Shown here: positions 13,694 to 59,269 of the stretch, piece by piece
Layout: each line of letters begins with the position of its first letter
Position numbering within the stretch: position 1 is the first letter of the stretch
Virus record (IMG/VR): IMGVR_UViG_3300028581_003812
Location: 1-59,269 of that record
Source: a virus
Direction: 5' to 3' (one strand)
DNA length: 59,269 nt
The notes under the pieces: model-generated
Database searches by the model: none
The model's input: the letters and a program-made list of their open reading frames with translations, nothing else
What the model was told of the DNA's origin: nothing
Position numbers and translations under genes: made by a program

Positions 13694-13929
13694 ATCCTAA
13701 TCCTAAATTGGGCATCAGGGACAAACGCTTCATGCCTGGCCAAGCTTATTCTTTATTTAACATTAGAAAAGCTGGAGACAAGGTCACATATGTTTTTGTT
13801 GACCAAATGCGTCAAAAGACAGAAGTAGAATTTAATTCTTGCAGAGATGCTGATCAGTTTATTTGCAAATTAAAAAATGAAAGAATTCCTGATTACAGTA
13901 TTAGACCCGAAGAACCGGCTTTAACCTAA
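13660..13929 (+). CDS. Small conserved T4-like protein of unknown function
   Basis: 89 residues. It is strand-rich: MHYIIGTSFVVNPNP, then RFMPGQAYSLFNIRKAG and KVTYVFVDQMRQKTEVEF, ending in a charged helix and a Pro/Glu tail. The pattern looks like a small beta-barrel or SH3-like fold, which is a guess from alternation alone. It overlaps the previous gene by 34 bases and ends 9 bases inside the convergent fibre gene 13921-14865. Confidence 0.55.
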   Translation: MHYIIGTSFVVNPNPKLGIRDKRFMPGQAYSLFNIRKAGDKVTYVFVDQMRQKTEVEFNSCRDADQFICKLKNERIPDYSIRPEEPALT

Positions 13930-41616: not shown

Positions 41617-41619
41617 ATA
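41613..41619 (+). promoter_or_regulatory. Late-type promoter element
   Basis: TTAAATA, 5 bases before the ATG at 41625; it lies directly after the 1153-residue gene stop. Confidence 0.55.
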
Positions 41620-41624
41620 CTTTA

Positions 41625-44600
41625 ATGCTCGATTCAAGCAGATTCATTGACGAACGTATATCCACATCTGTAACTTCCTTGATACCTGTTGAAAATCCTA
41701 TAGATGCAGATAAACCACTCACTTTTATAGAGTGGCTGAAATATAATAACAGCCTATTCACAAATGCAGACGATTTTCTATTGAGGTATCAATCTTATCT
41801 TAACAATTGGTATGAAATAAAAGGCAAATCAAAAGATATTATTGAGATGGAAATAAGAAAGAGCTATACATCTCTTATTAATGAAATTGTTTTAAGTTAT
41901 GCTTCTTCAGAAGAAAAGCGTTTCTTAAAAAATATCGATTTTAATAATAAAAGAGATCTGGCTATAGCTGTACCATTTTTTGCAAAGAAAATTAAAGATA
42001 TATGCTTATATTACAGCACATTGCGTGATGATGTTAAAACCGCCCAACTCAGATACAATTTAAAAGGTTCTAATTTGGGTATTGAGAAGTTAGTTTACAA
42101 TGAGATTTCAAAGTCATTAGAAGCAGATGACTTGGTTGATATTGTTAGAACTCTTAATTTGTCTTTATCTGATATAAGAAACAATCTGGTAATTAATTTA
42201 GAAGATATTTTTGATACATATTCGTATTATTTAGATAATAGTATCAACCAATCACCCTCTGCCAACGGTATAACTAACGGAGAAGGGCAGGACTACTCTT
42301 CAGCAAACACCTATGATATCAATCCAAGCCTATTCTTAGACTTTAACTCTTCCATTGTTCAAGCCATTTCTTCTTATCCTTTCTTTCTAATTGAGCTAGG
42401 CACAAACAATTTCAGTATAAATCTTAAACCTGAATCAACTGACTTGAATCTTCTTAAAGATAGTGATTATATTAACACAGTTAACACCGAGGTACAAGGC
42501 AATTTAAATTTAAACTTACAAATCGCTGCAGCTAAAAAATACATAGGTACAGAATTTTATTTTCTCTCTACTAACAGCACTAATACAGCGTTTATTTCTG
42601 GTATACTCTTTACACCTGACAATGAGTTTGCAAACTATTTAAATAAAAGATTTCCATCTATTGCAGCCATTCCATCCACAGAATATTTAAAAACTGCAAA
42701 AGAGATTGGGTTATTTTTTAAACCCGATAAAATTGGATTATCAGTTTTTAATAATTTTAAAAATAATTACAGTGTTAAATCATTAAGCGCTAACACAGTT
42801 TATGTTTTTCCAAACCCTGAAAAATATGGTAATGTATCCAGCTTAACCAAGGAGAGCTTCAATTCACCGCTAGAGTTTTATGATAACTCATACCTACTCA
42901 AGCTCGACTTTTCAAATCAATTTGCTTTTGGTGATGCCACTAATAACTCTTACCTGCAAACGTTTAGGAGCTATCAGTCGCGCGAACAATCAAACTTAAT
43001 GCCTCTGCAGGGGTTAGCGCGCTACACAGATCCACAAGATTTCTTTAAAGGTGAGTTTAGATCCATATGGTCAAATAGTGACATCTACCCTCTCATACCG
43101 CAAAATCTTTTTCCCATTGACAACAGAGTAGAAAAACTCTATTCGCTAGACAAAACATTAGTGCAATTCAAGAGTGACGTATACGGCAACGATTACAGTT
43201 TTTATAAAGAAGTATACCCAAAAAAATCTCTTTCAAATATTTACGTAGATCAAGATTCCAGAGGCATAAAATACTGCTTTGCCTTTGATGGACATTTGTT
43301 TTATGACCCTGTCTCTGGATCTAATTTTAATTATGATTTGGTTGATGAAAATAAAGGGTATTCAGGAGTAACATTTAGAGCGGTAACTCAAATTCCACCA
43401 GGATCCGGTTATTTTACTCGCGGACCCAACTCACTCACCCCCTCACCCCTTTCAGCTCAATATTATAATAATGGAATACCCAATTACTTGTATTCAGATC
43501 AACCAACACCTGTTATTTCATATCGATTTCAGCCTGAGACGTATTGCAGTGATGTGGCCACTGTAACTTACCTTTGCAATTCATTTGATGGCGTCGGTTT
43601 TGTGTCATCAGACGGTACCATTCTGCCAGATGTGCCATCAGATACTCCAACCTATGATCCCTTCACAGATATATTATATTATGTTGAACTGGCCGATGGT
43701 GGTAGTTGTCCTACAAACTCACCCACATATATTGCTAATTTTGTAAACCCGCCTTCATTTAGCTTTGCACCTCCTCTTTCTGCACTTTCATATGCAGATG
43801 GATTTAAATTTTTAGTAAATGGTGATAATCCTTGTGGTGGTAATGTAAAAAGATCTGCCGTATATACTGAAAAATCACAATATTTAAATTATAGAGTGCC
43901 TTACAGATCCACAGCAGTAGTTGAAACCCAACCCGGGTTAACTAACAAGAGATCTCTTTATGAAACCAAGTTTATTGATTTTGGTGAACTCTATGTAAGA
44001 AATTCTAACTCCTCTTTACTTGCACCTGCATCTGCTGCTCTCAGTGCTCTGTACTACAAATATGATGAATTAATAAACAATGAACTGGATGAAAAATTAA
44101 TTAATTTTGACGTCTTCTATGATGTAATAAATTTCGAAACAGAGAATTACTTAATTTTTGATAAAATTAAATATAATTACACATCAAACTTACCGATAAC
44201 TAATTCTAATGCGGATTGTTTTTTCGCCAGAGGTGAAAATAAAAAGTTTGAGAAGTTTTCCACAATTTGGTTTAATGAAACTGAAAATAAGCTATATTTT
44301 TGTAGAACTGTGCTGTTTAATGAATTAAGTGCCACAAACTATAAAATAATTTATCCAGAAATTTACGAAATTTCTTTGAATACCATGACCTCTTCTAAAA
44401 TATATCCACAAGACACCAACATTAATTTAACTGTTGACAAGCTTAAATTATTTTCTTTAATAGGGAAAAATATTAATTTAAATATTGTGGAAATCGAAAA
44501 ACCACTACTAACTTATGACGATGAAACATCAAATTTTACAATCACATATCTAGGCAAAGATCTTTCCAATGTATTCTACATAAATAAAATATACTTTAAA

Positions 44601-44780
44601 TATATCAATGGTGTCATAACTATATTAAATGCGTTTATGCATAAAATAGATCAAAATGTGGTGAGTATAAATTTTGCAAATGTAGGCACATCTGTACCAT
44701 CACCTGTATTTTCCACATATAATGTAAGAGGAGCTACTGCTGGATCAGTATCTGGCGGAGTATTTTCATTCGGAGTATAA
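41625..44780 (+). CDS. Giant virion structural protein of unknown function
   Basis: 1051 residues. The N-terminal 200 residues are helical and read like a virion assembly domain: [35 protein letters not shown], then [53 protein letters not shown]. The remainder is beta-rich with Ser/Thr/Asn and many aromatic residues, as in fibre or wedge proteins. Cys pairs near 640-720 may form local cross-links. It has its own late-type promoter and is followed with a one-base gap by the lectin-like gene. It may be the wedge or fibre protein taking the place of T4 gp10-like parts, but the exact role is not known. Confidence 0.6.
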
Positions 44781-44781
44781 T

Positions 44782-46410
44782 ATGTCTTATTACGTTCTAA
44801 CTAACAATGATAAAGCATCTGTATTATACTCAAAGATGCTTATTGATACAACCAGAGATTTTTATGTTACTTTTGACTACGCGTGCTATGGCAATACATC
44901 ATTAGGTGCACATGGGTTTTGCTTATTTCTAGTTGACATAGCACAATCAAGCCTGATATACGGCAGCCCCGGTCCAGGGCTGGGTGTAACTGCACTTACT
45001 GCAGATCTAGGTGGCTCTAACATAAGAGGCTTCCAGGGCATACCCAATACCTCACTTTGTGTTGGTTTCGATATCAATGGAATTTATGGCAGCAACAATA
45101 CAGGACTAAATGGCCCATCAGCAATTGTACCCAACAGCATCACTCTCAGATCGTCACAGACCAGTGGATTTAGATTTTTATATAGAACGGATAATTTAGC
45201 AAGCTCTACGTTTAGTACACCCTTATCACTATATAAAGTGGCCACAGATGCCCCGGCATACAACACTTTTCGTATCAAAATTACTGACTTTGGCTCCAAG
45301 GTTGAAGTAGATCATAAGGATGCGCAGTCATTAATCTTCACTAATTATGTCACATTTAAATTGCCGTATACTTTGCCTAGCATAATTTATCCTTGCTTGT
45401 CCTTTAGCTCCAATACACCTTCAGCGAGAATGAAAGTTGGTAATATGAATGTGAATGCATATCTGACCACACCCACACCCACACCTACTATCACACCTTC
45501 CAACACTGTAACACCCACTGTCACCCCCACTATTACTGTATCACCCACAGTAACACCCACATTCACCAAGACACCCACTGTCACCCCCACTATTACTGTA
45601 TCACCCACAGTAACACCCACACTGACATTATCTAATACAGTAACACCTACGATAACACTTTCACCCACAACAACCCCCACAGTAACACCCTCACCAAATG
45701 CGACATTAACACCCACATTAACACCCACAGTTACACCCACAATAACACTTTCACCCACAGTAACACCTACCATAACTGTTTCCAATACATCAACACCCAC
45801 ACCCACACCCACACCCACATACACCCCCACACACCCACCCACACCTTCTACTACACAATCACCCACCCCCACCCCCACACAAACAAGAAACCTACCTGAG
45901 TACCTTTTCTTTGCTTCAACTGAAACAAATATTGATATAATTAACAATGCTCCAGCAAGCCCATACCCAGTCAATATTCCAGTTACAGGTGTTGATCAGA
46001 CTGTCAAAAAGGTGGCACTAGTTTTAAGTGGTTACACACATGGCTTCCCATATGATGTAGGCATGCTGTTAGTTGCTCCAGATGGCACTGCTGTTGTGCC
46101 TGTTTATCAGATTGCAGCATCAGAAGGGTTTGAGGCCAATGATGCTGATGTCATACTAGATGATAGCAGCACTAGTGCATGGGATGGGTATTCTTCTGGC
46201 ACATATCATACAGTCAATACAAATGACCCGTCAGCTGTCTTTAACGGCTCTGGTGCTAGACCAGCACCACCATACAATTTGGACTTGACTGTGTTCAACC
46301 AAGTGTCTTACAGCGGCATTAATGGTACTTGGAAGTTGTATATTGAAGACTTCTTTATACGCGATTCCGGAACTTTGTTCCGAGCAGGGCTGAGAATTTA
46401 TTACAATTGA
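44782..46410 (+). CDS. Modular adhesin: L-type lectin domain, Thr/Pro-rich stalk, P-domain
   Basis: 542 residues in three parts. Residues 1-225 resemble an L-type (concanavalin-like) lectin: [63 protein letters not shown]. Residues 229-370 are a Thr/Pro-rich mucin-like linker built from [13 protein letters not shown]-type units. Residues 375-542 fit the P/Homo-B domain: [29 protein letters not shown], then [30 protein letters not shown]-domains are Ca-binding beta sandwiches. This suggests a tail adhesin with a carbohydrate-binding head and a long rigid stalk. GGAG lies 6 bases before the ATG. It is the last gene before the glycosyltransferase island. Confidence 0.72.
45466..45891 (+). repeat. 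Thr/Pro-rich codon repeat array
   Basis: Coding repeat of ACACCC-like units with strong C bias on the plus strand. Within it a segment of 50 bases is exactly duplicated with a 60-base period (45511-45560 and 45571-45620). The antisense strand yields a long artificial open frame of Val/Gly repeats. Confidence 0.9.
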
Positions 46411-46427
46411 TTTTCTTCTACTAGATA

Positions 46428-46435
46428 TTAAAATA
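46428..46435 (+). promoter_or_regulatory. Late-type promoter element (variant)
   Basis: TTAAAATA, 5 bases before the GTG at 46441; one base longer than the usual motif. It opens the glycosyltransferase island. Confidence 0.35.
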
Positions 46436-46440
46436 ATTTA

Positions 46441-47688
46441 GTGAAAATTTTTATATCTATTGCTTCATACAGAGATCCTCAGCTGCCCGACACATTAAAA
46501 GATTGCATTGCTAATGCAAAAAAACCAGAAAATTTAGTATTCTCTATTTGCTGGCAAAGAGGAGACAGTGAATCACTTAATGAATTTAAAGACGATAAAC
46601 GCTTTAAGATTATAGAAATACCTGCGCAAGATAGCAAAGGTACATGCTGGGCGCGCTCCAAAATACAGGAAAACTATGACGGTGAAAAATACTACCTGCA
46701 ATTAGATAGTCACCACCGGTTTGTAAAGGATTGGGATACAAAATGCATTAAAATGGTAAAAGATTTGCAAAAGCTTGGTCATAAAAAGCCTTTACTAACC
46801 GGTTATGTTTCAAGCTTTAATCCCTCCAATGACCCAGCTGAAAGAATACATACACCCTGGAAGATGAATTTTGATAGATTCATTCCAGAAGGTGCTGTAT
46901 TCTTCTTACCTGCATCAATAGATGATTTCAAATCCAGAACATTGCCTATTCCTTCCAGGTTTGTTTCAGCCCACTTCATCTTCACTCTAGGCAAGTGGTG
47001 CCAAGAAGTGCCATATGACCCACATTATTATTTTCATGGTGAAGAGATCAATCTTGCTGTGAGATCCTACACATGGGGATATGATTTATTTCATCCACAT
47101 GAAGTTGTTGTATGGCATGAATATACTCGCAAAGGTCGCTCAAAACATTGGGATGACATCAAAGAGTGGGGTGAAATGAATAAGAAATCACATTTGAGAA
47201 ATAGAAAGCTATTTGAAATGGATGGGGAGAAAAAGGATATTGATTTTGGTAAATACGATTTTGGTAAGAAACGCTCTGTAAAAGATTATGAAAAATATGC
47301 AGGTCTTTGCTTCAAGAAGCGTGCAGTTCAAAAATATACTCTAGATAACAATCTTGCACCCAACCCTACATTGTCCAATGAGGATCTGGATATGTCCTGG
47401 TTGAAGATTTTCAAGCACTGTATTGATGTGCGATATGAACAGGTACCAGAAAAAGACTACGACTTTTGGTGTGTAGCTTTTAAAGACAAAGATGGTAAAG
47501 ATGTGCATCGTCAAGATGCAGATAAGCAAGAAATAGAAAATATGTTCAGAGACCCTGACAAATATTGTAAAGTTTGGAGATCTTTTCACTCAGAAGAGAT
47601 GCCTGCAAGCTGGATTGTATGGCCTCACAGCATTAGTAAGGGCTGGCAAGACCCCATCACTGGTCAACTCAATAATATTATTAGCTAA
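46441..47688 (+). CDS. Glycosyltransferase of the Skp1-type GlcNAc transferase family
   Basis: 415 residues from a GTG start. The opening IFISIASYRDPQLPDTLKDCIANAKKPENLVFSICWQ is characteristic of the Skp1 GlcNAc-transferase family, which acts on protein hydroxyl groups in eukaryotes. LQLDSHHRFVKDWD (about 88-101) supplies the D-x-H nucleotide-sugar motif; HYYFHGEEINLAVRSYTWGYDLFHPHEVVVWHEY is the typical C-terminal catalytic part. The last 100 residues form an extra domain. It is the first gene of the island and follows the Thr/Pro-rich adhesin, so protein-linked glycosylation is a reasonable guess. The real acceptor is unknown. Confidence 0.75.
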   Translation: MKIFISIASYRDPQLPDTLKDCIANAKKPENLVFSICWQRGDSESLNEFKDDKRFKIIEIPAQDSKGTCWARSKIQENYDGEKYYLQLDSHHRFVKDWDTKCIKMVKDLQKLGHKKPLLTGYVSSFNPSNDPAERIHTPWKMNFDRFIPEGAVFFLPASIDDFKSRTLPIPSRFVSAHFIFTLGKWCQEVPYDPHYYFHGEEINLAVRSYTWGYDLFHPHEVVVWHEYTRKGRSKHWDDIKEWGEMNKKSHLRNRKLFEMDGEKKDIDFGKYDFGKKRSVKDYEKYAGLCFKKRAVQKYTLDNNLAPNPTLSNEDLDMSWLKIFKHCIDVRYEQVPEKDYDFWCVAFKDKDGKDVHRQDADKQEIENMFRDPDKYCKVWRSFHSEEMPASWIVWPHSISKGWQDPITGQLNNIIS

Positions 47689-48383
47689 TGAACGAATATA
47701 TTAAATCTGTTCTGCAGGAATCTTACAAAACAGTTGCTCCTTTTACTGCATGGGCAACAAACAGCATTTCAGGTGATGATTGCACACACAAAAGAGCCAA
47801 ACCAGCACCTTTTTTAAAGCTTTTAAGCTGCATAAATCAAAAATATCCGTTCAAGACCATTGTGGAGATTGGTGCCATACGATATGCAGTTACACAAAAG
47901 TGCATTGATTACTTCAATCTTGACTACCATACAATTGAAGGTCCTGCGTGCTGTGCAGATGGTCACTCAACATATTTTTTAAGTAAGTTTGGAGGTGATT
48001 TTTATTCTGTAGACATTGATCCCTCCAGAATTGATGCAATTAAAAATTCATATCATCATTTAAATGAAAAACAACCGGACAACTTACATGTTAACATACC
48101 ATGTGATGGAATAGATTTTCTTAAAACCATAGATCGTAAAATCGATCTGTTATTCCTTGATGGTTGGGATGTCGGTACACCCAGTTATGCAGAAAATCAT
48201 TTATTAGCTTATACAGTAGCTAAAGTCTTTAATAAACTGTCAGATAATGTTATTATTGGCATTGACGATACTGATTTCACACCAGGATTTGCTGGCAAGG
48301 ACAATTTACTTGGCCCAGAACTAATAAAAGACGGGTTTGTACCGTTTCTACGTGGAAGATGCTCGCTTTTTATTAAATTATAA
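47688..48383 (+). CDS. SAM-dependent methyltransferase-like protein
   Basis: 231 residues, starting on the last base of the previous stop. A Rossmann-like pattern is seen: FKTIVEIGAIRYAVTQ (motif I, lacking the common GxGxG), then FYSVDIDPSRIDAIKNSYHHL (motif II acidic Asp), IDLLFLDGWDVGTP (motif IV with Asp) and VIIGIDDTDF. These fit class I methyltransferases or the related cephalosporin hydroxylase-like group that modify sugars in glycan clusters. Loss of the GxGxG loop means cofactor use is uncertain. Placed between glycosyltransferases, it may methylate a sugar (inference). Confidence 0.6.
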   Translation: MNEYIKSVLQESYKTVAPFTAWATNSISGDDCTHKRAKPAPFLKLLSCINQKYPFKTIVEIGAIRYAVTQKCIDYFNLDYHTIEGPACCADGHSTYFLSKFGGDFYSVDIDPSRIDAIKNSYHHLNEKQPDNLHVNIPCDGIDFLKTIDRKIDLLFLDGWDVGTPSYAENHLLAYTVAKVFNKLSDNVIIGIDDTDFTPGFAGKDNLLGPELIKDGFVPFLRGRCSLFIKL

Positions 48384-48384
48384 T

Positions 48385-49560
48385 ATGAAAGTATCAATAG
48401 GTGACATAGTAGACAGGTATTCAATTTGCAAACTCAAATCAGAGAGAACATCCATAGATTGCTCGTCTGAACTGCACGCACTTGAAGCTGAACTCAAGAA
48501 CTATGATGGAATTAATGGGTATGTTGATACATTATACCGGATAAACGGTGACATATGGAATCTTGAAGCAGATATTCGCAAAGGCAATGAAGATATAATT
48601 GGTTTAGAGGAAGTTGGCCGCAGAGCTATTCAAATCAGACAATTCAACGGTCAAAGAGTGGCTGTTAAAAATGACATTAACTCACTTCATAAAGAAGGTT
48701 TCGTTGAAACAAAAATTAATCACGGTAGTCATAAACAGGTACCCATAGTTGTCACACTCAGTACTGTTCCAGAAAGATTAAATCATATTCACTCGGAAGG
48801 ATTGCCTCTGGTTGTCAAGTCTTTATGCGAACAAACATATAAAGACTATGAAGTGCATTTTAATATACCTGAGATTTATAAACCAAACAATACACCATAT
48901 GTTATACCAGAATGGTTGAGTGAATATCAGCTCAAATATCCACACTTGAAGGTATTCCGTACAGAAGATTTTGGGCCACCCACTAAGCTATTGCCAACCC
49001 TGCTTCGTATTCAGGATCCAGAAACAATTATAGTTGTAGTGGATGATGATCTGGTGTATCACAGTGAACTTGTGCAAGAGCATTTCAATCATAATCAAAA
49101 AATTAATAATGCTGGTTTTGGTTATGATGGCAGATCTAATTGCGGTGAATACAGGTATAATGATTTAAGAGATGCATGGGTGCTATGCATTGATAGACCC
49201 ACAAAAACACATATTATTCAGCACTACAAATCTGCCTCTTATAGGAGAAAATACTTTGAATCTGACTTTTTTGAGCATTTCTTAGGCAAGACTCGATCAG
49301 ATGATATACTCATTTCTTATTATTTGAGATTTAAAGAGATTGATCTCATTATAATGCCCTATGAAACAGATCTGCACATGTTTGATACACCAGAAAAATG
49401 GCAAAAACATCAAGGTGTTGAAACATTTCCTGTTCTAAGACATGCTCACATGCCAGGAGCTACAGGCTGCACAAATCCTGATATGCTTAAGATTGAGGAC
49501 AGGTTTTACACCCCACCTATCTTTGAGACTTGGCTAAGAGAAAAACAGATAGTATACTAA
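48385..49560 (+). CDS. Two-domain glycosyltransferase with DUF6165-like N-terminus
   Basis: 391 residues from the ATG at 48385 (an earlier in-frame ATG at 48337 lies in the previous gene). Residues about 1-95 (KVSIGDIVDRYSICKLKSER, with Leu/Glu-rich helices) resemble the DUF6165-type domain found in polysaccharide gene clusters. From about 125 a GT-A enzyme follows: VPIVVTLSTVPERLNHIHSEGLPLVVKSLCEQ, then IIVVVDDDLVYHSELV with a DDD nucleotide-sugar motif at about 220-222, and later KTRSDDILISYYLRFKEIDLI. The fusion suggests coordination of glycan assembly. Donor and acceptor unknown. Confidence 0.65.
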   Translation: MKVSIGDIVDRYSICKLKSERTSIDCSSELHALEAELKNYDGINGYVDTLYRINGDIWNLEADIRKGNEDIIGLEEVGRRAIQIRQFNGQRVAVKNDINSLHKEGFVETKINHGSHKQVPIVVTLSTVPERLNHIHSEGLPLVVKSLCEQTYKDYEVHFNIPEIYKPNNTPYVIPEWLSEYQLKYPHLKVFRTEDFGPPTKLLPTLLRIQDPETIIVVVDDDLVYHSELVQEHFNHNQKINNAGFGYDGRSNCGEYRYNDLRDAWVLCIDRPTKTHIIQHYKSASYRRKYFESDFFEHFLGKTRSDDILISYYLRFKEIDLIIMPYETDLHMFDTPEKWQKHQGVETFPVLRHAHMPGATGCTNPDMLKIEDRFYTPPIFETWLREKQIVY

Positions 49561-50532
49561 ATGAACCGTAAGCTAGTGGTTCAATATGAGTTTCCTCATA
49601 ACGAATGGTTCCTTACCCGTTATTTTCATAGTGTTGCTAAAACTTTAGTTGATAAAAATTCAGAGATAGAGTTTACCTTCATAAACTCTGGAGATTTAAG
49701 TGAAAGGAATTCATATACACGCAATTCTGCACATATGATGACTATAACCAATCCTGATAATGGTAAGTACATACTTCAAAGCTTTTGGGATAAGAATATT
49801 TGTTTGTTCAATAAGCATCATTGGGATCCGCCCAACATGGTGCAACTTTTTTGCTCTTCCGGTTTAAACAGGGCAGAATATGACTATTTTTTTGCACATA
49901 CCCCCTGCAGGGATACTGTGCCTATTGATTATGACAACATCCTCACACCTTTTACCTATTTTCCGTACACTACAAGAGCTGCAAGAATAATAGAAGATCT
50001 ATACCCCCAAAGAAATTCAGAACATCTGGATAATAAAATGGTATTTCGTGGAGCACTTTATAATGAAAGACTGTTCCTAAGAAATACTATTCATAATGGG
50101 GAGGATATAGTAGTAGATAATATGCAAGATAGCTACAAAGATGCACCAGAGTTTTTAAAGGAGCAGATTGGCAATCTGTGTGCGCTCAGCATTAACGGTG
50201 CAGCGGAAATATGCAATAGAGACATTGAATTGTTTGGTCTTGGCATGCCTGTTCTTAGATCAGAGCTCAACATAGCTTTCCACAATCCTTTGATACCTGA
50301 TGTACACTACATTGCTGCCGGTAAATGTGATTTTAGATGCAGTACCACTCATACAGATTACAATATACTAAAAAATGCTATACTTGAAAAGTTTGAGTTT
50401 GTAAAAAATCATCGTGACTTCTGTTTACAGGTGGGTGAAAATGCCAGAAAATGGTATCTGGAGAATTGTACTATTAGCAACATGGTATCCATGTTTGAAA
50501 AATTGGTGAAGCTGGACAAGCTATTTGAATGA
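49561..50532 (+). CDS. Glycosyltransferase, CAP10/GT90-like (paralogue A)
   Basis: 323 residues, beginning directly after the previous stop. The conserved core ALSINGAAEICNRDIELFGLGMPVLRSELN, then PLIPDVHYIAAG, resembles the CAP10/GT90 signature in which a nucleotide sugar is bound near R-D-x-E. The first 130 residues (RKLVVQYEFPHNEWFLTRYFHSVAKTLV) form a likely first Rossmann-type half. It shares the core with the next gene, so the two are duplicates that diverged. It overlaps the following gene by 4 bases (ATGA). The role may be adding different sugars to one glycan (inference). Confidence 0.6.
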   Translation: MNRKLVVQYEFPHNEWFLTRYFHSVAKTLVDKNSEIEFTFINSGDLSERNSYTRNSAHMMTITNPDNGKYILQSFWDKNICLFNKHHWDPPNMVQLFCSSGLNRAEYDYFFAHTPCRDTVPIDYDNILTPFTYFPYTTRAARIIEDLYPQRNSEHLDNKMVFRGALYNERLFLRNTIHNGEDIVVDNMQDSYKDAPEFLKEQIGNLCALSINGAAEICNRDIELFGLGMPVLRSELNIAFHNPLIPDVHYIAAGKCDFRCSTTHTDYNILKNAILEKFEFVKNHRDFCLQVGENARKWYLENCTISNMVSMFEKLVKLDKLFE

Positions 50533-51449
50533 ACAATTTAATCATATATCAATCATCAAATTTTCAAAATAAATTCTTCAGATACTATCATTTGTTTTTT
50601 GATCAATTAATATGCCAATTAAAAACCAATTATATTGTTAAAGAGGATAGATTTTTTGAAAAAGCTGACGAAATTGGCAGACCCATCAGACTTTCTGATG
50701 GCAGTGAATATACTATTTTAGAATGTGAATTATTGATAGAAAACACCACAACTAACAAAATCTATTTTATTTCTGTTTGCGATTTGCTCTCAAGTTGCAG
50801 CATACATATCCAAATGAACAAGAGATTGCAAAAGGTTTTATTAAGTCAATATAATTTTAAAGAAATTGAGCTCAATATCTTACCTGCACACTCTGATAAG
50901 TTTGTTCCTTGGATATATTTTCCATATGTAAGCAACGATTTGGAGCAACATTATACTAAGCGAGCCACAGCAGTATTGAAGGACGAGCTGTTTTTTAGAA
51001 CTTCATCCTCATGGTACCGTCCGTTATTGAGATACATTGATAACAGCATTCTTAAAGACATAGAGCATATAGGCAGCTTCGACAATTACTGTAGTGATGC
51101 TATAACATATAAGATGGGCCTATCCTTAGGCGGCAAAGGTGATTTATGTTATAGAGACATAGAATACTTGGGTCTGGGCATACCCTTCATTAGATTCAAA
51201 TACAACAGTACACTCAGTCAACCTTTATTGCCAAATTACCACTACATTAATGTGGATTACCCTGAAAGCAGTGTTCGTGATAAAGATGGTACAGAGGAGT
51301 ATGCTGAATTAATTAAAAAAAGGTTTTTGGAAGTTAAAGACGATGTTAATCTTTTAAATTACATCTCCAACAATGGCTACAATTATTATAATACATATAT
51401 AAAGCATCCCAATAATGTAGCATACACTTTACAATTACTTGACCTATAG
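50529..51449 (+). CDS. Glycosyltransferase, CAP10/GT90-like (paralogue B)
   Basis: 306 residues. The core LSLGGKGDLCYRDIEYLGLGIPFIRFKYN, then PLLPNYHYINVDYPE, matches paralogue A over the same catalytic stretch. The N-terminal half (IIYQSSNFQNKFFRYYHLFFDQLICQL) has diverged much more, so acceptor choice probably differs. It overlaps paralogue A by four bases and probably depends on it for translation. A 33-base gap precedes the two-domain glycosyltransferase. No signal peptide or membrane helix is seen, so it would act in the cytosol. Confidence 0.58.
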   Translation: MNNLIIYQSSNFQNKFFRYYHLFFDQLICQLKTNYIVKEDRFFEKADEIGRPIRLSDGSEYTILECELLIENTTTNKIYFISVCDLLSSCSIHIQMNKRLQKVLLSQYNFKEIELNILPAHSDKFVPWIYFPYVSNDLEQHYTKRATAVLKDELFFRTSSSWYRPLLRYIDNSILKDIEHIGSFDNYCSDAITYKMGLSLGGKGDLCYRDIEYLGLGIPFIRFKYNSTLSQPLLPNYHYINVDYPESSVRDKDGTEEYAELIKKRFLEVKDDVNLLNYISNNGYNYYNTYIKHPNNVAYTLQLLDL

Positions 51450-51482
51450 ATTTGTCATTTTAAAGCTATACATATTCAATAG

Positions 51483-53150
51483 ATGAAAAATAAATTAACC
51501 ATTGTCACTGGTATTTTTGATCTGGGCAGAGATAATGCCGGTGAGGGGTTCAAGCGACCATTCACACATTACATAGTCAAATTTACTGAACTGCTCAAAG
51601 CACTAAAGGATTATAATGTAGTTATCTATATTGAAGAGAAGTATAAAAATTTAGTTGAAGATATACGCGATTCATCAAACACAGTAATAAGAACGAAAGA
51701 AATTGATGATTTTAGAAACAATTTTCCTTTCTATGATCAAGTATCTAAAATAAGAAAGGATGAAAAGTGGTTTAAGCAAGCTGGTTGGTTGGAGAACAGT
51801 GCACAAGCTACCATGGAGCTCTACAACCCCATGGTCATGTCAAAAATGTTCATGCTTCATGATGAAAAAATCCGCAATCCTTTTGACTCTGATTATTTTT
51901 GCTGGATTGACGGTGGTTTAACCAATACAGTACACCCAGGATACTTTTCCAAAGATAAAGTATTGGATAAACTACCTAATATTTTGGATAAGTTTTTATT
52001 CTTGTGTTTCCCATACCCTGATGGAGGTGAAATTCATGGCTTTGACCGAAACAAGCTGAACGATTTAGCTGGCACAAAAAATGTAGAGTATGTTTGCAGG
52101 GGTGGAATTTTTGGCGGCCCCAAAGATCTTATAAGTGATATTAATAGCATTTATTATAGTCATTTATGCAGCACTCTTAATGAAGGATACATGGGCACTG
52201 AAGAGAGCATATTCACGTTAATGTCTTACACACACCCTCAGTTATTTAAAAAGCATATGATTGAATCAAACGGACTAGTAAGCAAATTTTTTGAGGATTT
52301 AAAAAATATGGAGGTGCAAGAGAATAACAACATTACTCTGAATAATTACACAGGTACCAGTCTGTATGTCATTGGATTCAATTCACCTAATCAATTTGAG
52401 ACATTGTGTGAAAGTTATCTGCAACAGCCTGGCTTTATAAAAGAAACAAAGAATTACCTGTTGGATAACAGTACTGATGTATCTACCACTCCAGCTTATG
52501 AAGAGCTTTGTAAGAAATATAACTTTGAGCATCTTAAGAAAGATAATTTAGGCATATGCGGTGGCAGACAATTTGTAGCTGAGCATTTTGATTCAACAGA
52601 TTCAAAGTATTATATTTTTCTAGAAGATGATATGCTTCTATATGATAAAGAAGGTGTATGCAAGAATGGGTTCAACAGAAAAACGAACAATTTATTTTAT
52701 AAGATTTTAAAAATAATGGACAAAGAAAATTATGACTTTTTAAAGTTTAGCTTTACTGAGTTTTTTGGCGACAATTCAACACAATGGTCATGGTATAATC
52801 TTCCACAAGTTGCAAGAGAAAGATTTTTTCCTGATTACAACAAACTGCCTAAGATAGGCACAGATCCAAATGCACCAAAAACAACATATAAGAATATTAA
52901 AACTTTGGATGGTGTTGCGTATGCAGATGGTGAAGTGTATTACTGCAATTGGCCACAGATAGTGTCTAGAGAAGGTAATAAAAAAATGTTTTTAACTACC
53001 AAATGGCAACGCCCATATGAGCAAACTTGGATGTCTTACATGTATCAGCTATGCAAAGAGCAGGTATTAGCAGGTAGCATATTGTTAATGTCTCCTATAG
53101 AACATAATAGATTTGATCATTATGCAGGTAACCTCAGAAAAGAGAGTTAA
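51483..53150 (+). CDS. Two-domain glycosyltransferase: HtrL/YibB-like N-half and GT2-like C-half
   Basis: 555 residues. The N-half (about 1-270) resembles HtrL/YibB/WlaTC-like enzymes: LTIVTGIFDLGRDN, HYIVKFTELLKALKDYNVVIYIEE and YFCWIDGGLTNTVHPGYF. The C-half (about 290-555) resembles GT2: TGTSLYVIGFNSPNQFETLCESYLQQPGF, then YYIFLEDDMLLYDKEG where EDD fits the DxD-type site, and a helical end. Two catalytic centres in one chain suggest two sequential sugar additions. It closes the island; the next late-type promoter follows. A second family name is possible for either half. Confidence 0.65.
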   Translation: MKNKLTIVTGIFDLGRDNAGEGFKRPFTHYIVKFTELLKALKDYNVVIYIEEKYKNLVEDIRDSSNTVIRTKEIDDFRNNFPFYDQVSKIRKDEKWFKQAGWLENSAQATMELYNPMVMSKMFMLHDEKIRNPFDSDYFCWIDGGLTNTVHPGYFSKDKVLDKLPNILDKFLFLCFPYPDGGEIHGFDRNKLNDLAGTKNVEYVCRGGIFGGPKDLISDINSIYYSHLCSTLNEGYMGTEESIFTLMSYTHPQLFKKHMIESNGLVSKFFEDLKNMEVQENNNITLNNYTGTSLYVIGFNSPNQFETLCESYLQQPGFIKETKNYLLDNSTDVSTTPAYEELCKKYNFEHLKKDNLGICGGRQFVAEHFDSTDSKYYIFLEDDMLLYDKEGVCKNGFNRKTNNLFYKILKIMDKENYDFLKFSFTEFFGDNSTQWSWYNLPQVARERFFPDYNKLPKIGTDPNAPKTTYKNIKTLDGVAYADGEVYYCNWPQIVSREGNKKMFLTTKWQRPYEQTWMSYMYQLCKEQVLAGSILLMSPIEHNRFDHYAGNLRKES

Positions 53151-53167
53151 AAAACTATACTTTTATA

Positions 53168-53174
53168 GTAAATA
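53168..53174 (+). promoter_or_regulatory. Late-type promoter element
   Basis: GTAAATA, 5 bases before the GTG at 53180, directly after the last island gene. Confidence 0.45.
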
Positions 53175-53179
53175 ATTAG

Positions 53180-54004
53180 GTGAATTATACATATTATGTA
53201 TTGTCCAGTTACCAACCACTTGGTAAGCCTGGATTTGTTAATTCATGGTTTTTTTATGACCCAGTGTATGGTGTCAACATTAATTACCCTAACACTCTGA
53301 GTGGCAGTACATTTGATAGCACTCTGGGCACATATGTGTATCCTGCAACAACTTATGGAGGCAATTTCATACCCTGGGGCTACATAGTACAAAATTCTAC
53401 TCTGAGTGCTGATTTAGGTAATTTTAAAGGTTCAACTACTTTAACTATTCAACCTTCTTCAATAGATGAGAAGTATTTTACCACATTAAAGATTGTATAT
53501 GATTTTAATGACAACGATATAAGAGTGATTGAGAAAAGCATTGTGCAGAACGATGTGTTCAATAACGTGAGTATAGATCCTGGATCGCCTACAGATTATC
53601 CTATTTCCCATACGTACTACACTCCCACTACAACCACCACGTTTTACCCTTCAATAACAGTAATCAATGGCAACTTAGCTTTAAACATTTTTAATCTTAA
53701 ATTAACCTTAAAACAGGATTCACTCTTTGATTTTGATAATTTTCATTTAATCAATTCTGCTCAGTTAACGAAGGCAGCATCTTTAAAATATAAAAGCTTA
53801 GAAGTTATAGAGCTAGATTCACAACCGTCAAAACTCATTTCAAATTTCTTACTGTTAAGTGCAAATGCTGACGAAATTTACAATACCCCCTACCCTACAC
53901 CTTCTTTAACAATAACAAATACACCAACGCCGACACCAACAAAAACAGTGATACCCACACCCACACCCACATTAACCCCCACTCCCACTAAAACCTCACC
54001 ATAA
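53180..54004 (+). CDS. Virion protein with Thr/Pro-rich C-terminal tail
   Basis: 274 residues from a GTG start. Residues 1-230 are strand-rich, Ser/Thr/Tyr-heavy with no recognised domain (YTYYVLSSYQPLGKPGFVNSWFF, TLKIVYDFNDNDIRVIEKSI, NLALNIFNLKLTLKQDSLFDFDNF). Residues about 235-274 are Thr/Pro-rich (TPSLTITNTPTPTPTK), the same composition as the stalk of the lectin adhesin. The end is bare, so the tail may point outward or join a partner. It lies immediately after the glycosyltransferase island. Role in the tail fibre or baseplate is inferred. Its TAA stop lies in the next promoter element. Confidence 0.6.
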   Translation: MNYTYYVLSSYQPLGKPGFVNSWFFYDPVYGVNINYPNTLSGSTFDSTLGTYVYPATTYGGNFIPWGYIVQNSTLSADLGNFKGSTTLTIQPSSIDEKYFTTLKIVYDFNDNDIRVIEKSIVQNDVFNNVSIDPGSPTDYPISHTYYTPTTTTTFYPSITVINGNLALNIFNLKLTLKQDSLFDFDNFHLINSAQLTKAASLKYKSLEVIELDSQPSKLISNFLLLSANADEIYNTPYPTPSLTITNTPTPTPTKTVIPTPTPTLTPTPTKTSP

Positions 54005-54007
54005 ATA
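54001..54007 (+). promoter_or_regulatory. Late-type promoter element
   Basis: ATAAATA, 7 bases before the ATG at 54015; it contains the TAA stop of the preceding gene. Confidence 0.5.
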
Positions 54008-54014
54008 AAAACAT

Positions 54015-57000
54015 ATGGATATCATATCTTTAAATCAATTTAATTTTATAGGATTATCAGCTAACTACCCTTTTGATAACACCCTAAAAATAAATCAAAA
54101 TATGTTTTTTTCAGAACAAGGTATTAATATTGCTATTAATAATATCCTTCAAGATGTTAATGATAATAAAATAAATAATTATTCAAACCTATTTCTAACC
54201 AAGTTAGATAATTTGGATAGTAATGTTACTATCCAAACACTCAATAAATTGGACGATGAGGGGTTCTCTACATATTTTGCTTGTAATGCCATAGGCGCAT
54301 TTACGCCCACGTCACGTTTTTGGACAGTGGAAGAGCCTGACATTGATACGAATCTAGCAAGCATTGCTGTAACTGGTGTTTCAACTGAAATTAATAATTC
54401 CTATTTCTTTGATGTCGAACTTCTGACTGACAAACTGTGCACAGTCTCTCATGAAAACAACGGGATAATAAGATATCTTACTCTAGATTATACAGGCAAC
54501 TTAAGCTTTTGTAAAGAAATCGATTTATTAACTACAAATGAATACAATCCTCAAATTTTTTATTATGTTTATGCACGTAATTATGATTATTTTATATTAA
54601 TGAAAAACATTAATGATGTATGCAAATTTTTAACGTATTCAGCTGATGCTCAAGACTTAATTCTAGTGGATCCTTTGACCGGTTCTGTAGTACCCTACTC
54701 TACTACTGCTGTGTTTAGAGTTCGCCCTAGGAATGAGGAGCCCAACTTCACAAGCTTAACAGACTCATGGGTAAGTTATAAGAAAGATTTTAAAACAAAT
54801 TCGTTAACTGTTAATAATGACCGAAGCTACAGTAAAATAAAAAGTAATCTGCTTGTCAATAGTGAGTATTATAATGTTTCAGAAGATAAAAAATCTTTAG
54901 ATGTAAATTTATTATCGTTAAAAAATACTAACACATCTGAAAACAACCAATCTCGAGGCAACCCGTTCTTTAATGAAGATAATGTACAGTTCAGAGATTA
55001 TAAAACAATTTTTACAGGCTCAAATCAAATCAAAGGCAATGACAATATAGTCTTTAATTATGAAACATATACAACATCAATATTTCTTAAGAAAGATAAA
55101 GTAACATATTTTCATGTACCACAAATTTTTTACCCTTTTGTGAGACTTAATATTAATGATTCAAATCTTGTTAATGCAGGTGCCATTGCTGGCGATCACC
55201 CTTTAAAATCTGATAAAATTTTTAAGAAAAAATCTGATTACAAATATTCATCGCATTTCGGTGAAACAATTGAAGAAACAACTGGCAGCTTTTTATGTTC
55301 ATGGCTTTCTGGTAGCACAGACACCACTGTAAAACCCATATGGGTTGACAGGTACTTTAATCCCAAACGCTCTACATTTATTAGTGCTTTGTCTGCTTCA
55401 ACATACAAAGCGATCCAATACATTTCGCTTTTTGATTGTTTGACTGATAAGGCTGCAGAATTACTTGGTGATGTTGATGTTTTTGATAAACCTTCAGATT
55501 TAGTTTTTGAGCCTGGTACCTATTATGCATATCATCACTACGGTCCAAAAGATGTTGACAATTTTATTAAAACGTTTTCAAGCTATTTAGTTCAGAATAA
55601 CTTTGATTATGTATACAGCACTAATGGGTCCGTTATTAATATTGATAAAAATAATTTTGAATATGATTTAAATGGTGAGAATTACTTAATCTCTGATAGT
55701 CTTTCAGCTATACAAGCTACCAATCAATTCACTCTGGCTTTTGATGCACATTCTGATGATTGGACAAAACCCTCGGGCTACCAAATTTTAGGCAATTTTA
55801 ATCGTGATGGGTTTGGAGTTTATAATAAAAATCTGGCCACCCCGTTAATTATATTTCCTGCTGCAAGTGCGCTCTATATAACCAATACTGATTTTAAAGT
55901 ATTGAATACAGTGGAACTCAATTCAAATATTTGCGGCATTATTAGACTGCAAGGTCTAAATGATGTGTATACAATACTGGAGGATAGTAGTATAAGACGG
56001 TACAACCTTTCGTATTCAGAGACAAGAAAAATAGTTCCTAGTGATAATGCCAAATTAAACCAGCTCTATGATATTGACTACGATGAAACAAACGCATATA
56101 TTTTATATAACAATAATGTACCGCCAAATGTAACCTCTCTAGTGAAGCAGTTTAATCTAGTTAACAATGAAATACAAGACGCAACTAATGCTACAAAAAA
56201 CTGCATTCTGTTTACTAGTCCTAATTTACGCAGAACTGTAAACGTTTATAAAGATAAATTATACTTTACTAATGGATCCAAGGCAGAAAGAATTGATAAT
56301 ACTATTTTTTATCAAATTAATAATAGCTTAAGAATGTGGAAAAATATTGATTCGGCTTACTCCACAGATTTTATTGCATTTAGTGCTGCAACTAGTGTAG
56401 ATGATTTTATGTTCGATTTTGATAAAAATTTATGGTTGTTATATGATAAAAATAAATATGTTAAATTTACTAATAAGCGGAAATTCATATTATCTGGTAG
56501 CTTCGGTAACGATAGCTACGACAACTATAAATTGTTTCCCACTGCAGAGTTTGATAACACAGGATACAATAAAAAGATAATTGCATCCAGATTAGCAAAT
56601 GCAAAAACCAATTTAAACATAGTTACCATTGATTCCATTGGTAATATAGAGAAATCTACTCTTTTAAACGCTACATCAGCTAAGTTTAACAATTTTTCCA
56701 ATAGTTCGTATCTTACTAATTATCTTGCTGAAAAATACCCAGAGAGTAGCTTAAATTTTGTTGCGCAGCTAGTCAATTCCTTTGATTTAAACGATACAGC
56801 TTCCACTGAAATTGTATACAATCTTTCAGCGTTAGACCCGGGGTACCATAATTTTGCTCTTCGCTTTGATTCATATGAAGGATTCATGTATTTGTTTGTG
56901 GATGGTCAAATGCAACAGTACTCAGAATTTGCACCCAGAAAGTATAAATTTAGTAATCTGGCTTCCCGACCTTTTTTAATAGGTACCAGTTCCTATACTA

Positions 57001-57374
57001 ATGGCGTACCTCTCTTTAACTACCTTAAAAAAGAAAACTCTTACATGGTTGATAACATTAAAATTAAAAACTTTTATTTGTATGATAAGCCGTTGTTTGA
57101 TTTTGATATTATTTTTCATGCCAGAAAAGGTATGAAAATTAATGATTTAAATTTTGATCTGGCTTGTGGTAAAAGAAATTATCTGGAAGAAGTGGAGCGA
57201 TATTTCAAGGTGGATCCACCTGGTACAAAGAGCACACTCTTCAATGTGGCAATACGCAACACAGGTATCACTAACCCGGAGCTAAGATATGCTCTGGAGC
57301 AAAGAGTAAACCAAATTTTTAGTATATCTGCACCTGCGTATACTAAATTAAATAAATTTGTCTGGATAAATTAA
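54015..57374 (+). CDS. Giant tail structural protein with LamG/concanavalin-like domain
   Basis: 1119 residues. Most of it is beta-rich and Asn/Ser/Asp-heavy with no clear family. Residues about 915-1035 look like a LamG-type concanavalin fold: LDPGYHNFALRFDSYEGFMYLFVDGQMQQY, then FSNLASRPFLIGTSS and VDNIKIKNFYLYDKPL. The C-terminus (NTGITNPELRYALEQRVNQIF) is helical and could anchor it to the baseplate. It follows the short Thr/Pro-rich protein and precedes a propeller-like protein, so these probably form one distal tail structure. LamG domains bind glycans or proteins. No enzyme motif seen. Confidence 0.6.
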   Translation: MDIISLNQFNFIGLSANYPFDNTLKINQNMFFSEQGINIAINNILQDVNDNKINNYSNLFLTKLDNLDSNVTIQTLNKLDDEGFSTYFACNAIGAFTPTSRFWTVEEPDIDTNLASIAVTGVSTEINNSYFFDVELLTDKLCTVSHENNGIIRYLTLDYTGNLSFCKEIDLLTTNEYNPQIFYYVYARNYDYFILMKNINDVCKFLTYSADAQDLILVDPLTGSVVPYSTTAVFRVRPRNEEPNFTSLTDSWVSYKKDFKTNSLTVNNDRSYSKIKSNLLVNSEYYNVSEDKKSLDVNLLSLKNTNTSENNQSRGNPFFNEDNVQFRDYKTIFTGSNQIKGNDNIVFNYETYTTSIFLKKDKVTYFHVPQIFYPFVRLNINDSNLVNAGAIAGDHPLKSDKIFKKKSDYKYSSHFGETIEETTGSFLCSWLSGSTDTTVKPIWVDRYFNPKRSTFISALSASTYKAIQYISLFDCLTDKAAELLGDVDVFDKPSDLVFEPGTYYAYHHYGPKDVDNFIKTFSSYLVQNNFDYVYSTNGSVINIDKNNFEYDLNGENYLISDSLSAIQATNQFTLAFDAHSDDWTKPSGYQILGNFNRDGFGVYNKNLATPLIIFPAASALYITNTDFKVLNTVELNSNICGIIRLQGLNDVYTILEDSSIRRYNLSYSETRKIVPSDNAKLNQLYDIDYDETNAYILYNNNVPPNVTSLVKQFNLVNNEIQDATNATKNCILFTSPNLRRTVNVYKDKLYFTNGSKAERIDNTIFYQINNSLRMWKNIDSAYSTDFIAFSAATSVDDFMFDFDKNLWLLYDKNKYVKFTNKRKFILSGSFGNDSYDNYKLFPTAEFDNTGYNKKIIASRLANAKTNLNIVTIDSIGNIEKSTLLNATSAKFNNFSNSSYLTNYLAEKYPESSLNFVAQLVNSFDLNDTASTEIVYNLSALDPGYHNFALRFDSYEGFMYLFVDGQMQQYSEFAPRKYKFSNLASRPFLIGTSSYTNGVPLFNYLKKENSYMVDNIKIKNFYLYDKPLFDFDIIFHARKGMKINDLNFDLACGKRNYLEEVERYFKVDPPGTKSTLFNVAIRNTGITNPELRYALEQRVNQIFSISAPAYTKLNKFVWIN

Positions 57375-57379
57375 AACAT

Positions 57380-58999
57380 ATGAACATTTCTCAAGTATCC
57401 GCTGAAAATAACATAGTATATGATAGATATCTTTACGATAATCTTGAACTACCATATGGCATAAATGAAATCCTTATTCAAGCCAACGAAACTGTTTCTG
57501 CCAGTGTAATGAACTTAAAATTCGACTACATAAATAAAAACTTCTTGTATCTTTATAAAAATTCATTAATAAGCTCAAATATTATTCCTGTTTCTAATAC
57601 CGCTATTGCTGGTATTACAGCAAATTCGACTCTTTTCACTTGGTATTATAATTTGAGCACATCACAGTTCATACCTCTCTCCACCAATGTTGGTTTGGAG
57701 GGTATGGATCAAGTAAATTTAATGCATATACTGCAAAACCAAGGTACAGGGGCTTATTATATGTTCTTATCCTATTCTAACTATGTTAAGGTTTTTAAAT
57801 TTAATTTACAAGGTACATATTTGCAGAATGTATTTAATTTTAGTGAAATAGACCCCGGTCTCTCACAAGGCACTGGGTATGGTATAGCCTATAAAAGTAT
57901 ATCTGCTTTTGCTGCCATTGATAGATATTTTTATGTTCTAGATTCAGAGAGGTGCCAGCTAGTAAAATATGATGCAATTGGGTTCATAACAAAAAACAAT
58001 ATTTTTAATGAAAAGCTATCATATGTAAATTCAATAGGAAACTTTGGCGGTAAAACATCCAAATTGGAATTCAATAACCCAACAGGGCTAGCTGTGTACC
58101 AAAAATTTATATATGTATTAGATTCAGGTAACAGTTGTGTTAAAAAATACGATGGAGATTTAAACTGGGTTTACACATATAGGCTTTCAAAAGATTTATT
58201 AAACATTACTGCTCTTAATATAGCTTGTGATAATAGTGGCAATATTTACATTTTAACAAATAAAACTTTACTAAAATACAACAACAACTTCACATCAAAA
58301 GAAGAAATCGATTTAACAAAATATACAGGTGAAACGTTTAAAAAAATAGTTATTTCCACTACTAATGAAAATATTTTTTACCTGGTATCAGATAAAAATG
58401 TATATAAAAAGTTTACTAACCGCATAAGCCCTGACATAGGCAAATATCTTTTGTACAGGTACAACTACAACATACCTGCTGATAATATTACAGCATTCAC
58501 AACAATATCAGATGGTACAAATGATAATGTATTAATATTTACAAAAAACGGCAACACTGGTAAATTAGGTTTGTTTAAAGATAATTTGAATTTGTATGAT
58601 ATTTTAGCTCAAAGAGACTTTGATGTGTATACTTTAGGTAATATAGAAATAAACGGTCATGAATATTTTCAAAATTGGTGTATTAACAAAAGTTTAGCTA
58701 AAATTATTTTGAACCATATGCGTTTTAGAGATCAAATTATAGGTAAATTTCAAGCTAAAACTGATATTAATAATAATATAGTGTTTTCTAATACAAGATA
58801 TTTGCTGCCAGACGAATTAGATTCCATTTATTTTCAACAAGAACTCACTGCTTTCATAGGAGCAAATGAAATAGTAACCACAAGTGTTGTTAACAGATGC
58901 ATCAGATATATATACAATGCACAAATAAATATGCTTAAAGTATTGCAAGCTGAAATCCTAGGCATACCATACTTTGATAACACCATCACTTTGAGTTAA
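57380..58999 (+). CDS. Tail protein with NHL-type beta-propeller
   Basis: 539 residues, 5 bases after the previous stop. Residues about 170-330 have NHL-like blades: YFYVLDSERCQLVKYDAIG, PTGLAVYQKFIYVLDSGNSCVKKYDGDL, LNIACDNSGNIYILTNKTLLKYNN. The pattern (I/L)xVxDxxxxxVxKYD is repeated about 45 to 65 residues apart. The C-terminal 120 residues (CINKSLAKIILNHMRFRDQIIGKFQ, RCIRYIYNAQINMLKVLQAEIL) form helices, possibly a baseplate attachment. A related propeller occurs in the 1153-residue gene. Propellers here likely act in surface contact; function is inferred. Confidence 0.62.
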   Translation: MNISQVSAENNIVYDRYLYDNLELPYGINEILIQANETVSASVMNLKFDYINKNFLYLYKNSLISSNIIPVSNTAIAGITANSTLFTWYYNLSTSQFIPLSTNVGLEGMDQVNLMHILQNQGTGAYYMFLSYSNYVKVFKFNLQGTYLQNVFNFSEIDPGLSQGTGYGIAYKSISAFAAIDRYFYVLDSERCQLVKYDAIGFITKNNIFNEKLSYVNSIGNFGGKTSKLEFNNPTGLAVYQKFIYVLDSGNSCVKKYDGDLNWVYTYRLSKDLLNITALNIACDNSGNIYILTNKTLLKYNNNFTSKEEIDLTKYTGETFKKIVISTTNENIFYLVSDKNVYKKFTNRISPDIGKYLLYRYNYNIPADNITAFTTISDGTNDNVLIFTKNGNTGKLGLFKDNLNLYDILAQRDFDVYTLGNIEINGHEYFQNWCINKSLAKIILNHMRFRDQIIGKFQAKTDINNNIVFSNTRYLLPDELDSIYFQQELTAFIGANEIVTTSVVNRCIRYIYNAQINMLKVLQAEILGIPYFDNTITLS

Positions 59000-59002
59000 A
59001 TA
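58996..59002 (+). promoter_or_regulatory. Late-type promoter element
   Basis: TTAAATA, 4 bases before the ATG at 59007; its TAA is the stop codon of the previous gene. Confidence 0.5.
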
Positions 59003-59006
59003 CCAT

Positions 59007-59269
59007 ATGCAACCGTACGTTTTTAGAGTCTTGCAGCATCCAGGCGTGGTAGCCTCCACACCTATCTTACCCAGTCAAACACCAACCATGACTCCACCTG
59101 CCGGGTCACCCACCCCCACCCCTACCCCCACAGTCACTATCACGTTAACCAAGACTAACGAGCCAACACCTACACCTACAACAACACCCACCACGACACC
59201 CACAGTAACCCTTACAAATACACCTACAACCACACCTACACCCACTGGAACACCACTAATTTACTTAAA
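59007..59269 (+). CDS. Thr/Pro-rich virion protein, 5' end only (runs off window)
   Basis: The frame opens at ATG 59007 and stays open for 87 codons to the window end, so it is incomplete. A short head (MQPYVFRVLQHPGVVASTPIL) is followed by a Thr/Pro-rich region ([18 protein letters not shown], then [18 protein letters not shown]) like the stalk of the lectin adhesin and the tail of the 53180 gene. Here the Thr/Pro region is N-terminal, so an unseen domain, perhaps another lectin or receptor-binding tip, should follow. A late-type element sits 4 bases before the ATG. A mucin-like stalk role is inferred from composition. Confidence 0.65.
   Translation, partial: MQPYVFRVLQHPGVVASTPILPSQTPTMTPPAGSPTPTPTPTVTITLTKTNEPTPTPTTTPTTTPTVTLTNTPTTTPTPTGTPLIYL

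Follow-up and report, generated by a model that had tools for sequence, protein, structure and literature searches.

What does a phage glycosylate with enzymes that are encoded among its own tail genes? The question is raised by IMG/VR record IMGVR_UViG_3300028581_003812, a 59,269-base fragment from a T4-like, contractile-tailed myovirus that was analysed in full (hereafter the window), in which a glycosyltransferase island of six co-directional open reading frames (ORFs; 46441-53150) lies within the tail region, directly 3' of a gene for a fibre-like protein with a threonine/proline-rich (Thr/Pro) stalk. An earlier reading, made from the sequence alone (the sequence-only reading), had suggested that the phage glycosylates its own Thr/Pro fibres. 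After testing, this is the best explanation: the island is probably a phage-encoded cassette for mucin-type O-glycosylation of the phage's own Thr/Pro fibre stalks, with an exchangeable glycan cargo. Enzyme family, predicted fold, gene neighbourhood in phages, co-occurrence in contig sets chosen independently of the enzyme, cultured phages and gene neighbourhood in bacteria agree in pointing to Thr-rich stalks as the substrate.

The first gene of the island encodes a member of family GT60 (PF11397; 241 bits against a curated cut-off of 21, E = 2.8e-71). Its DxH motif is D89-S90-H91, and the string DSHH is invariant across 35 homologues, including those of the cultured phages XacN1 and RAS14; DxH in place of DxD is typical of families GT27 and GT60, which are related (PMC7185993). 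Searches of the PDB by sequence returned no match, but comparison of folds did. In the AlphaFold model (pLDDT, the predicted local distance difference test score, 90.6), the protein has a GT-A fold near GT27, and the top 41 PDB matches were all polypeptide N-acetylgalactosamine (GalNAc) transferases (best E 1e-10, template modelling (TM) score ~0.5), with 10-17% sequence identity. Among viral models, the best matches were 'GlcNAc' (N-acetylglucosamine) transferases of uncultured phages, followed by giant-virus proteins. Characterised GT60 enzymes act on threonine of Trypanosoma cruzi mucins (PMC9472816, PMC3769586) or, in the Skp1 pathway, on hydroxyproline (PMC6939170). The sequence-only reading had likened this enzyme to the Skp1-type transferases that act on protein; the kinship holds, since the Skp1 enzyme Gnt1 belongs to GT60, although the best fold matches are the mucin-initiating polypeptide GalNAc-transferases. 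The lead enzyme belongs to a family and fold that O-glycosylate peptides, and is predicted to transfer GlcNAc from UDP-GlcNAc to a polypeptide.

Genes for Thr/Ser/Pro-rich repeat proteins, the acceptors expected in a mucin-type system, are also present. In the Thr/Pro stretches, every second position is Thr or Ser (~90%), while the alternate position is mainly Pro, Val or Ile; the resulting [T/S]-x-[T/S]-x register is enriched 1.8-1.95-fold at lag 2 and only 0.16-0.33 at lag 1. The stalks of XacN1 follow the same two-residue grammar. Since the stretches draw on all four Thr codons, selection at the protein level is a likelier explanation for them than simple slippage. Nor are the arrays due to chance, because a DNA pattern for TPTxTPT had many matches per contig and the reversed pattern almost none. 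The fibre family to which the 44782 product belongs is modular in 15 phages, being composed of an N-domain, a stalk and one or more tips, with the tip repeated or replaced. Wherever this upstream gene is intact in close relatives (14 of 14), the family member directly before GT60 has a Thr/Pro stalk. One homologue of 1522 amino acids (L008, 5369-9937) has an apparently repeated N-domain, and RCC1-like repeats replace the P-like tip. The register was also considered as a signature specific to GT60, and was rejected because Thr/Pro contigs without GT60 have the same register.

The sequence-only reading had held that island and Thr/Pro genes should occur together across relatives, and to a considerable extent they do. 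Most of the viral contigs compared are fragments, and pattern counts were made at the DNA level. GT60 was found in 20 of 65 contigs picked solely for a Thr/Pro array, compared with 1 of 61 random contigs (p=4e-6), and in this single positive random contig, too, a Thr/Pro array lies a short way 5' of GT60; at >=35 kb, the figures are 19/54 and 1/35 (p=1.7e-4). Taking GT60 as the starting point, the TPTxTPT pattern was present in 36 of 50 contigs and in 4 of 36 random ones, where three of the four had one or two matches. Among 13 pattern-negative GT60 contigs that were examined, a strong Thr-rich repeat of a different kind (TGSTTG, TSGTSG, TTGTQ) was found in four and a weaker one in two; in ten random contigs, Thr repeats always stayed below the level of those four. 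Thr-rich stalks of other grammar in GT60 contigs are located at G003 115867-117771, G007 48144-51251, G010 35989 and G023 40866. In a lineage set selected through the structural protein encoded at 41625 (an alignment search gave 117 loci, a single-sequence search one locus), GT60 was present in 7 of 14 array-rich contigs and in none of 16 array-poor ones.

Among 50,697 phage records, GT60 of the window type occurs only in XacN1, CM1 and RAS14. All three contain Thr/Pro arrays (51 matches in XacN1, 22 each in RAS14 and CM1), and no such array was found in nine phages lacking GT60 (RaK2, GAP32, CBB, Atu_ph07, SCTP-2, S-ShM2, phage G, T4 and P-SSM2). The array genes of XacN1 include ORF369, 370 and 372, beside the tail sheath genes. 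At least two glycoproteins are reported in the XacN1 paper, whose authors propose the phage glycosyltransferases ORF328 and ORF334 as their source (PMC5852040); ORF334 is the GT60 homologue.

A comparable pairing is seen in bacteria. In 29 GT60 loci from one scan of bacterial genomes, Thr/Ser/Pro-rich genes make up 6 of 54 GT60 neighbours vs 2 of 213 other genes of the same loci (p=0.001); this adjacency rests on few clades, two of the six being close relatives, and a Thr/Pro-rich ORF of Trinickia (L548), three genes from GT60, was counted as non-adjacent. GT60 adjoins a gene for a Thr/Pro-stalk protein in several bacterial phyla, and its neighbours include a LapA-retention adhesin (Rhodocyclales) and a protein sorted by the type IX secretion system (Saprospiraceae), which suggests a bacterial version of the system. 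Surface-protein genes with Thr/Pro stalks beside GT60 were located at L562 9696-10523, L563 9642-10308, L540 6941-7729 and L537 6504-7649. Because GT60 and stalk are paired again in cultured phages and on bacterial chromosomes, the phages with this cassette probably do sugar-coat their own fibres.

GT60 is linked to a second conserved gene. The last product of the island matches HtrL_YibB (PF09612; 66.6 bits, cut-off 24.1, 3.5e-18), below the cut-off of the NCBIfam YibB equivalog, and by fold it comes closest to enzymes of several domains, among them LH3, chondroitin polymerase and LARGE1, at low overall TM scores. A scan for relatives of the GT60 enzyme gave 163 loci coding for one, of which 80 were kept for neighbourhood counts. 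A full-length YibB-type gene on the same strand is present in 68 of the 80, either downstream of GT60 after two to seven cargo genes (43 loci) or upstream of it, adjacent or one gene away, with the cargo 3' of GT60 (25 loci); in 7 of the 12 loci without YibB the contig ends within ~4.5 kb. YibB was found in 7/7 tested GT60 contigs, in 0/25 Thr/Pro contigs without GT60 and in 0/18 random contigs. The cassette from GT60 to YibB is present in XacN1 and RAS14, and several bacterial GT60 genes (Saprospiraceae, Bacteroidia, Jiulongibacter, Gemmatimonadota) have YibB adjacent or one gene away.

What lies between or beside these two genes varies among relatives, with GT25-like, GT10-like, galactosyltransferase-like and carbamoyltransferase members. 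In the window, the 49561 and 50529 products are paralogues (33% identity over 125 amino acids). The six genes had all been taken for enzymes; this stands at family level for GT60, HtrL_YibB and a GT2 protein exactly at the cut-off, but three of the six are without a firm family, the 47688 product being only weakly methyltransferase-like and the two paralogues having no Pfam family. Since the cargo is swapped among relatives while GT60 and YibB are conserved, the structure of the glycan could change in the manner of an O-antigen serotype. Whether all this amounts to a module common to phages and bacteria, in which GT60 as initiator and YibB/GT-A as partner decorate fibres and surface proteins on their Thr-rich stalks, Thr/Pro or otherwise, and the cargo is exchanged by recombination, so that phage fibre coats change like serotypes, is in our judgement evenly balanced.

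It should be noted that several observations weigh against glycosylation of the stalks. Both the glycan on the stalks and its target are inferred, and the main text of the XacN1 paper does not say which proteins carry glycans (PMC5852040). No Thr/Pro pattern is present in 14 of the 50 GT60 contigs, and 7 of the 13 that were examined, mostly fragments, have no clear Thr-rich stalk. GT60 is absent from 45 of the 65 Thr/Pro contigs, many of them fragments and some >100 kb; stalks with the same register in contigs without GT60 indicate that the stalk does not require the enzyme. The outcome by which the sequence-only reading would be refuted, island and stalk each occurring alone, is thus present in part. 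Thr/Pro contigs are also longer on average than random ones, and by length bin only that of >100 kb reaches p=0.045. Correlated gain and loss on the lineage tree comes down to two independent contrasts, both in the expected direction and underpowered. Finally, the C-terminal domain of the YibB protein weakly matches a family of DNA-base glucosyltransferases (phrog_842, 1.4e-4).

The GT60 contigs without Thr-rich stalks would fit a cassette that glycosylates other virion proteins, such as capsid or tail tube, with the Thr/Pro genes as mere neighbours; glycosylation of these two structures by phage enzymes is known from mycobacteriophages (Freeman 2023, as cited in PMC12619734). This appears unlikely in view of the independent co-occurrence with Thr/Pro arrays, the adjacency within the close clade and the surface-stalk neighbours in bacteria.

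The enzymes might otherwise alter the surface polysaccharide of the host during infection and so block superinfection or re-adsorption. The island does look like an O-antigen cassette, and some of the cargo resembles GT25, a lipopolysaccharide family. YibB is named after an Escherichia coli protein whose gene is placed in the lipopolysaccharide region. However, no island enzyme has a clear membrane segment (the maximum 19-residue hydropathy is 1.31), so that the membrane-bound transferase or flippase of Gtr-type O-antigen conversion was not seen, nor was a polymerase recognised; the fold of the lead enzyme is peptide-directed, and the genes sit in the tail region. We regard this possibility as distinctly improbable.

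A route like that of Skp1, with GlcNAc on hydroxyproline of the stalks, is suggested by Gnt1 itself, a GT60 enzyme that acts on hydroxyproline (PMC6939170), and by the Pro-rich stalks. Yet prolyl 4-hydroxylase-like genes (PF13640) occur in only 2 of 23 GT60 records, and in neither XacN1 nor RAS14, which makes Thr the likelier acceptor, although the host might supply a hydroxylase; moreover, the constant position of the repeat is held by Thr, not Pro. As the main route it was rejected, and we consider it very unlikely. Glycosylation of DNA bases against restriction, which the phrog_842 match and the known DNA modifications of T4-like phages might suggest, is scarcely credible, as stalk genes lie next to the island, the GT60 family acts on peptides, bacterial homologues adjoin surface proteins, and the predicted fold is GT-A whereas T4 AGT and BGT are GT-B folds.

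Glycosylation of the stalks could proceed as follows, with substrate, sugar donor, sequence of steps, occurrence on virions and advantage to the phage all being inferred. In the infected cell, GT60 would initiate the glycan on threonines of the [T/S]-x stalk; its donor is probably UDP-GlcNAc, which would leave an alpha-linked GlcNAc as the first sugar. The cargo enzymes (the GT2-like protein, the two paralogues and a possible methyltransferase) would then lengthen the chain and cap it, with a conserved extension contributed by the two-domain YibB/GT-A protein. The stalks would be assembled as extended, glycan-coated rods that keep the tip domains at a distance from the tail, and the phage might benefit through stiffening, protease resistance or masking.

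Among the closest known counterparts is the T. cruzi polypeptide alpha-GlcNAc-transferase TcOGNT with its mucins, which shares the family, the DxH motif and a Thr-rich, mucin-like substrate (PMC9472816, PMC3769586); TcOGNT, however, is a eukaryotic Golgi enzyme, while the GT60 of the window belongs to a phage without secretory pathway and is linked to YibB and variable cargo. GT27 polypeptide GalNAc-transferases start mucin-type O-glycosylation and are the best match among solved folds, but form another family. The Skp1 pathway shares the family and differs in its acceptor, prolyl 4-hydroxylase being missing from nearly all GT60 phage records. In mycobacteriophages, phage-encoded enzymes likewise modify virion proteins, reportedly at the C-termini of capsid and tail tube proteins (Freeman 2023, cited in PMC12619734), whereas in the present case Thr/Pro fibre stalks would be modified, and there are a GT60/YibB pair and cassette exchange. 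Another close counterpart is Xanthomonas phage XacN1, with homologues of GT60 and YibB in addition to its glycoproteins, yet the main text of its description names neither a GT60/YibB cassette nor Thr/Pro proteins as substrate (PMC5852040). Novelty had been claimed for a phage that glycosylates its own fibres; glycosylated virion proteins are already known, and what is new is the mucin-type enzyme with exchangeable cargo. In the body of literature that was searched, no earlier description of phage GT60/YibB or of fibre O-glycosylation was found.

The features of the window are collected in Table 1. Its assignment to a T4-like phage is based on genes for terminase, tail sheath, tape measure, gp6-like baseplate wedge and clamp loader. 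On the 3' side of the baseplate genes, the order is 38155 (PKD domain), 41625, the stalk gene 44782, the island, 53180, 54015, 57380 (NHL repeat) and 59007, all on the + strand; the layout in the sequence-only reading, with the island between two Thr/Pro genes and a third at 59007, was thus recovered. Neighbouring island genes overlap or are <=33 bases apart, and promoter- and terminator-like sites at these genes were at or near shuffle level in our scans. For the GT2-like gene, the TTG start at 48337 chosen by the ORF tool overlaps the preceding gene, and ATG 48385 fits better.

Table 1. Coordinates of the features discussed, with strand and supporting matches.
Feature	Position	Strand	Match
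RmlD-like dTDP-4-dehydrorhamnose (dTDP-sugar) reductase, outside island	9208..10101	+	2.8e-13
Structural context: gp6-like baseplate wedge and two large co-directional tail-region proteins	36299..44780	+	
Modular fibre/adhesin: conserved N-domain (~220 aa), Thr/Pro stalk, C-terminal domain weakly P-domain-like (proprotein-convertase)	44782..46410	+	P-domain E=0.09, below cut-off
Thr/Pro stalk of 44782 protein, residues 221-376, [T/S]-x-[T/S]-x register	45442..45909	+	
GT60-family transferase, first cassette gene, putative Thr initiator	46441..47688	+	PF11397 2.8e-71
DSH (DxH) motif within GT60 gene	46705-46713	+	
Variable cargo: weakly methyltransferase-like protein	47688..48383	+	Methyltransf_24 0.033, below cut-off; phrog_24975 1e-12
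Variable cargo: GT2-like glycosyltransferase	48385..49560	+	PF00535 exactly at Pfam cut-off, 23.3 bits
Variable cargo: paralogue of 50529 product, no Pfam family, glycosyltransferase by context	49561..50532	+	
Variable cargo: paralogue of 49561 product, no Pfam family	50529..51449	+	
Conserved second linked gene: HtrL_YibB domain and second GT-A-like domain	51483..53150	+	PF09612 3.5e-18; phrog_842 1.4e-4
Tail-region protein with Thr/Pro C-terminus (stalk ~53888-54001)	53180..54004	+	
Third Thr/Pro-rich gene, runs off window end	59007..59267+	+	

The RmlD-like gene is a possible sugar-donor gene. At 2615-3936, a glutamine-amidotransferase-like gene precedes a second glycosyltransferase-like gene (Glyco_tranf_2_5), and homologues of the 3256 gene are present in other GT60 contigs (G003, G028, G007). 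A BspA-type leucine-rich repeat protein (336-1427, - strand) and a C1q-domain protein (13921-14865, - strand) are possible further host-contact proteins.

Cassette and Thr/Pro-stalk genes were found in a group of large aquatic phages, and as cultured phages already carry the system, it can be tested directly. If our interpretation is correct, glycosyltransferase islands of large aquatic phages that have lacked an assignment would be explained, the way in which hosts and defences see phages would be affected, and small soluble enzymes would become available with which Thr/Pro repeats can be glycosylated. Mucin-like fibres would be built and glycosylated by phages with the help of kin of the enzymes that initiate mucins in parasites, and exchange of cassettes would vary the glycan; mucin-type protein glycosylation would then not be solely a eukaryotic trait.

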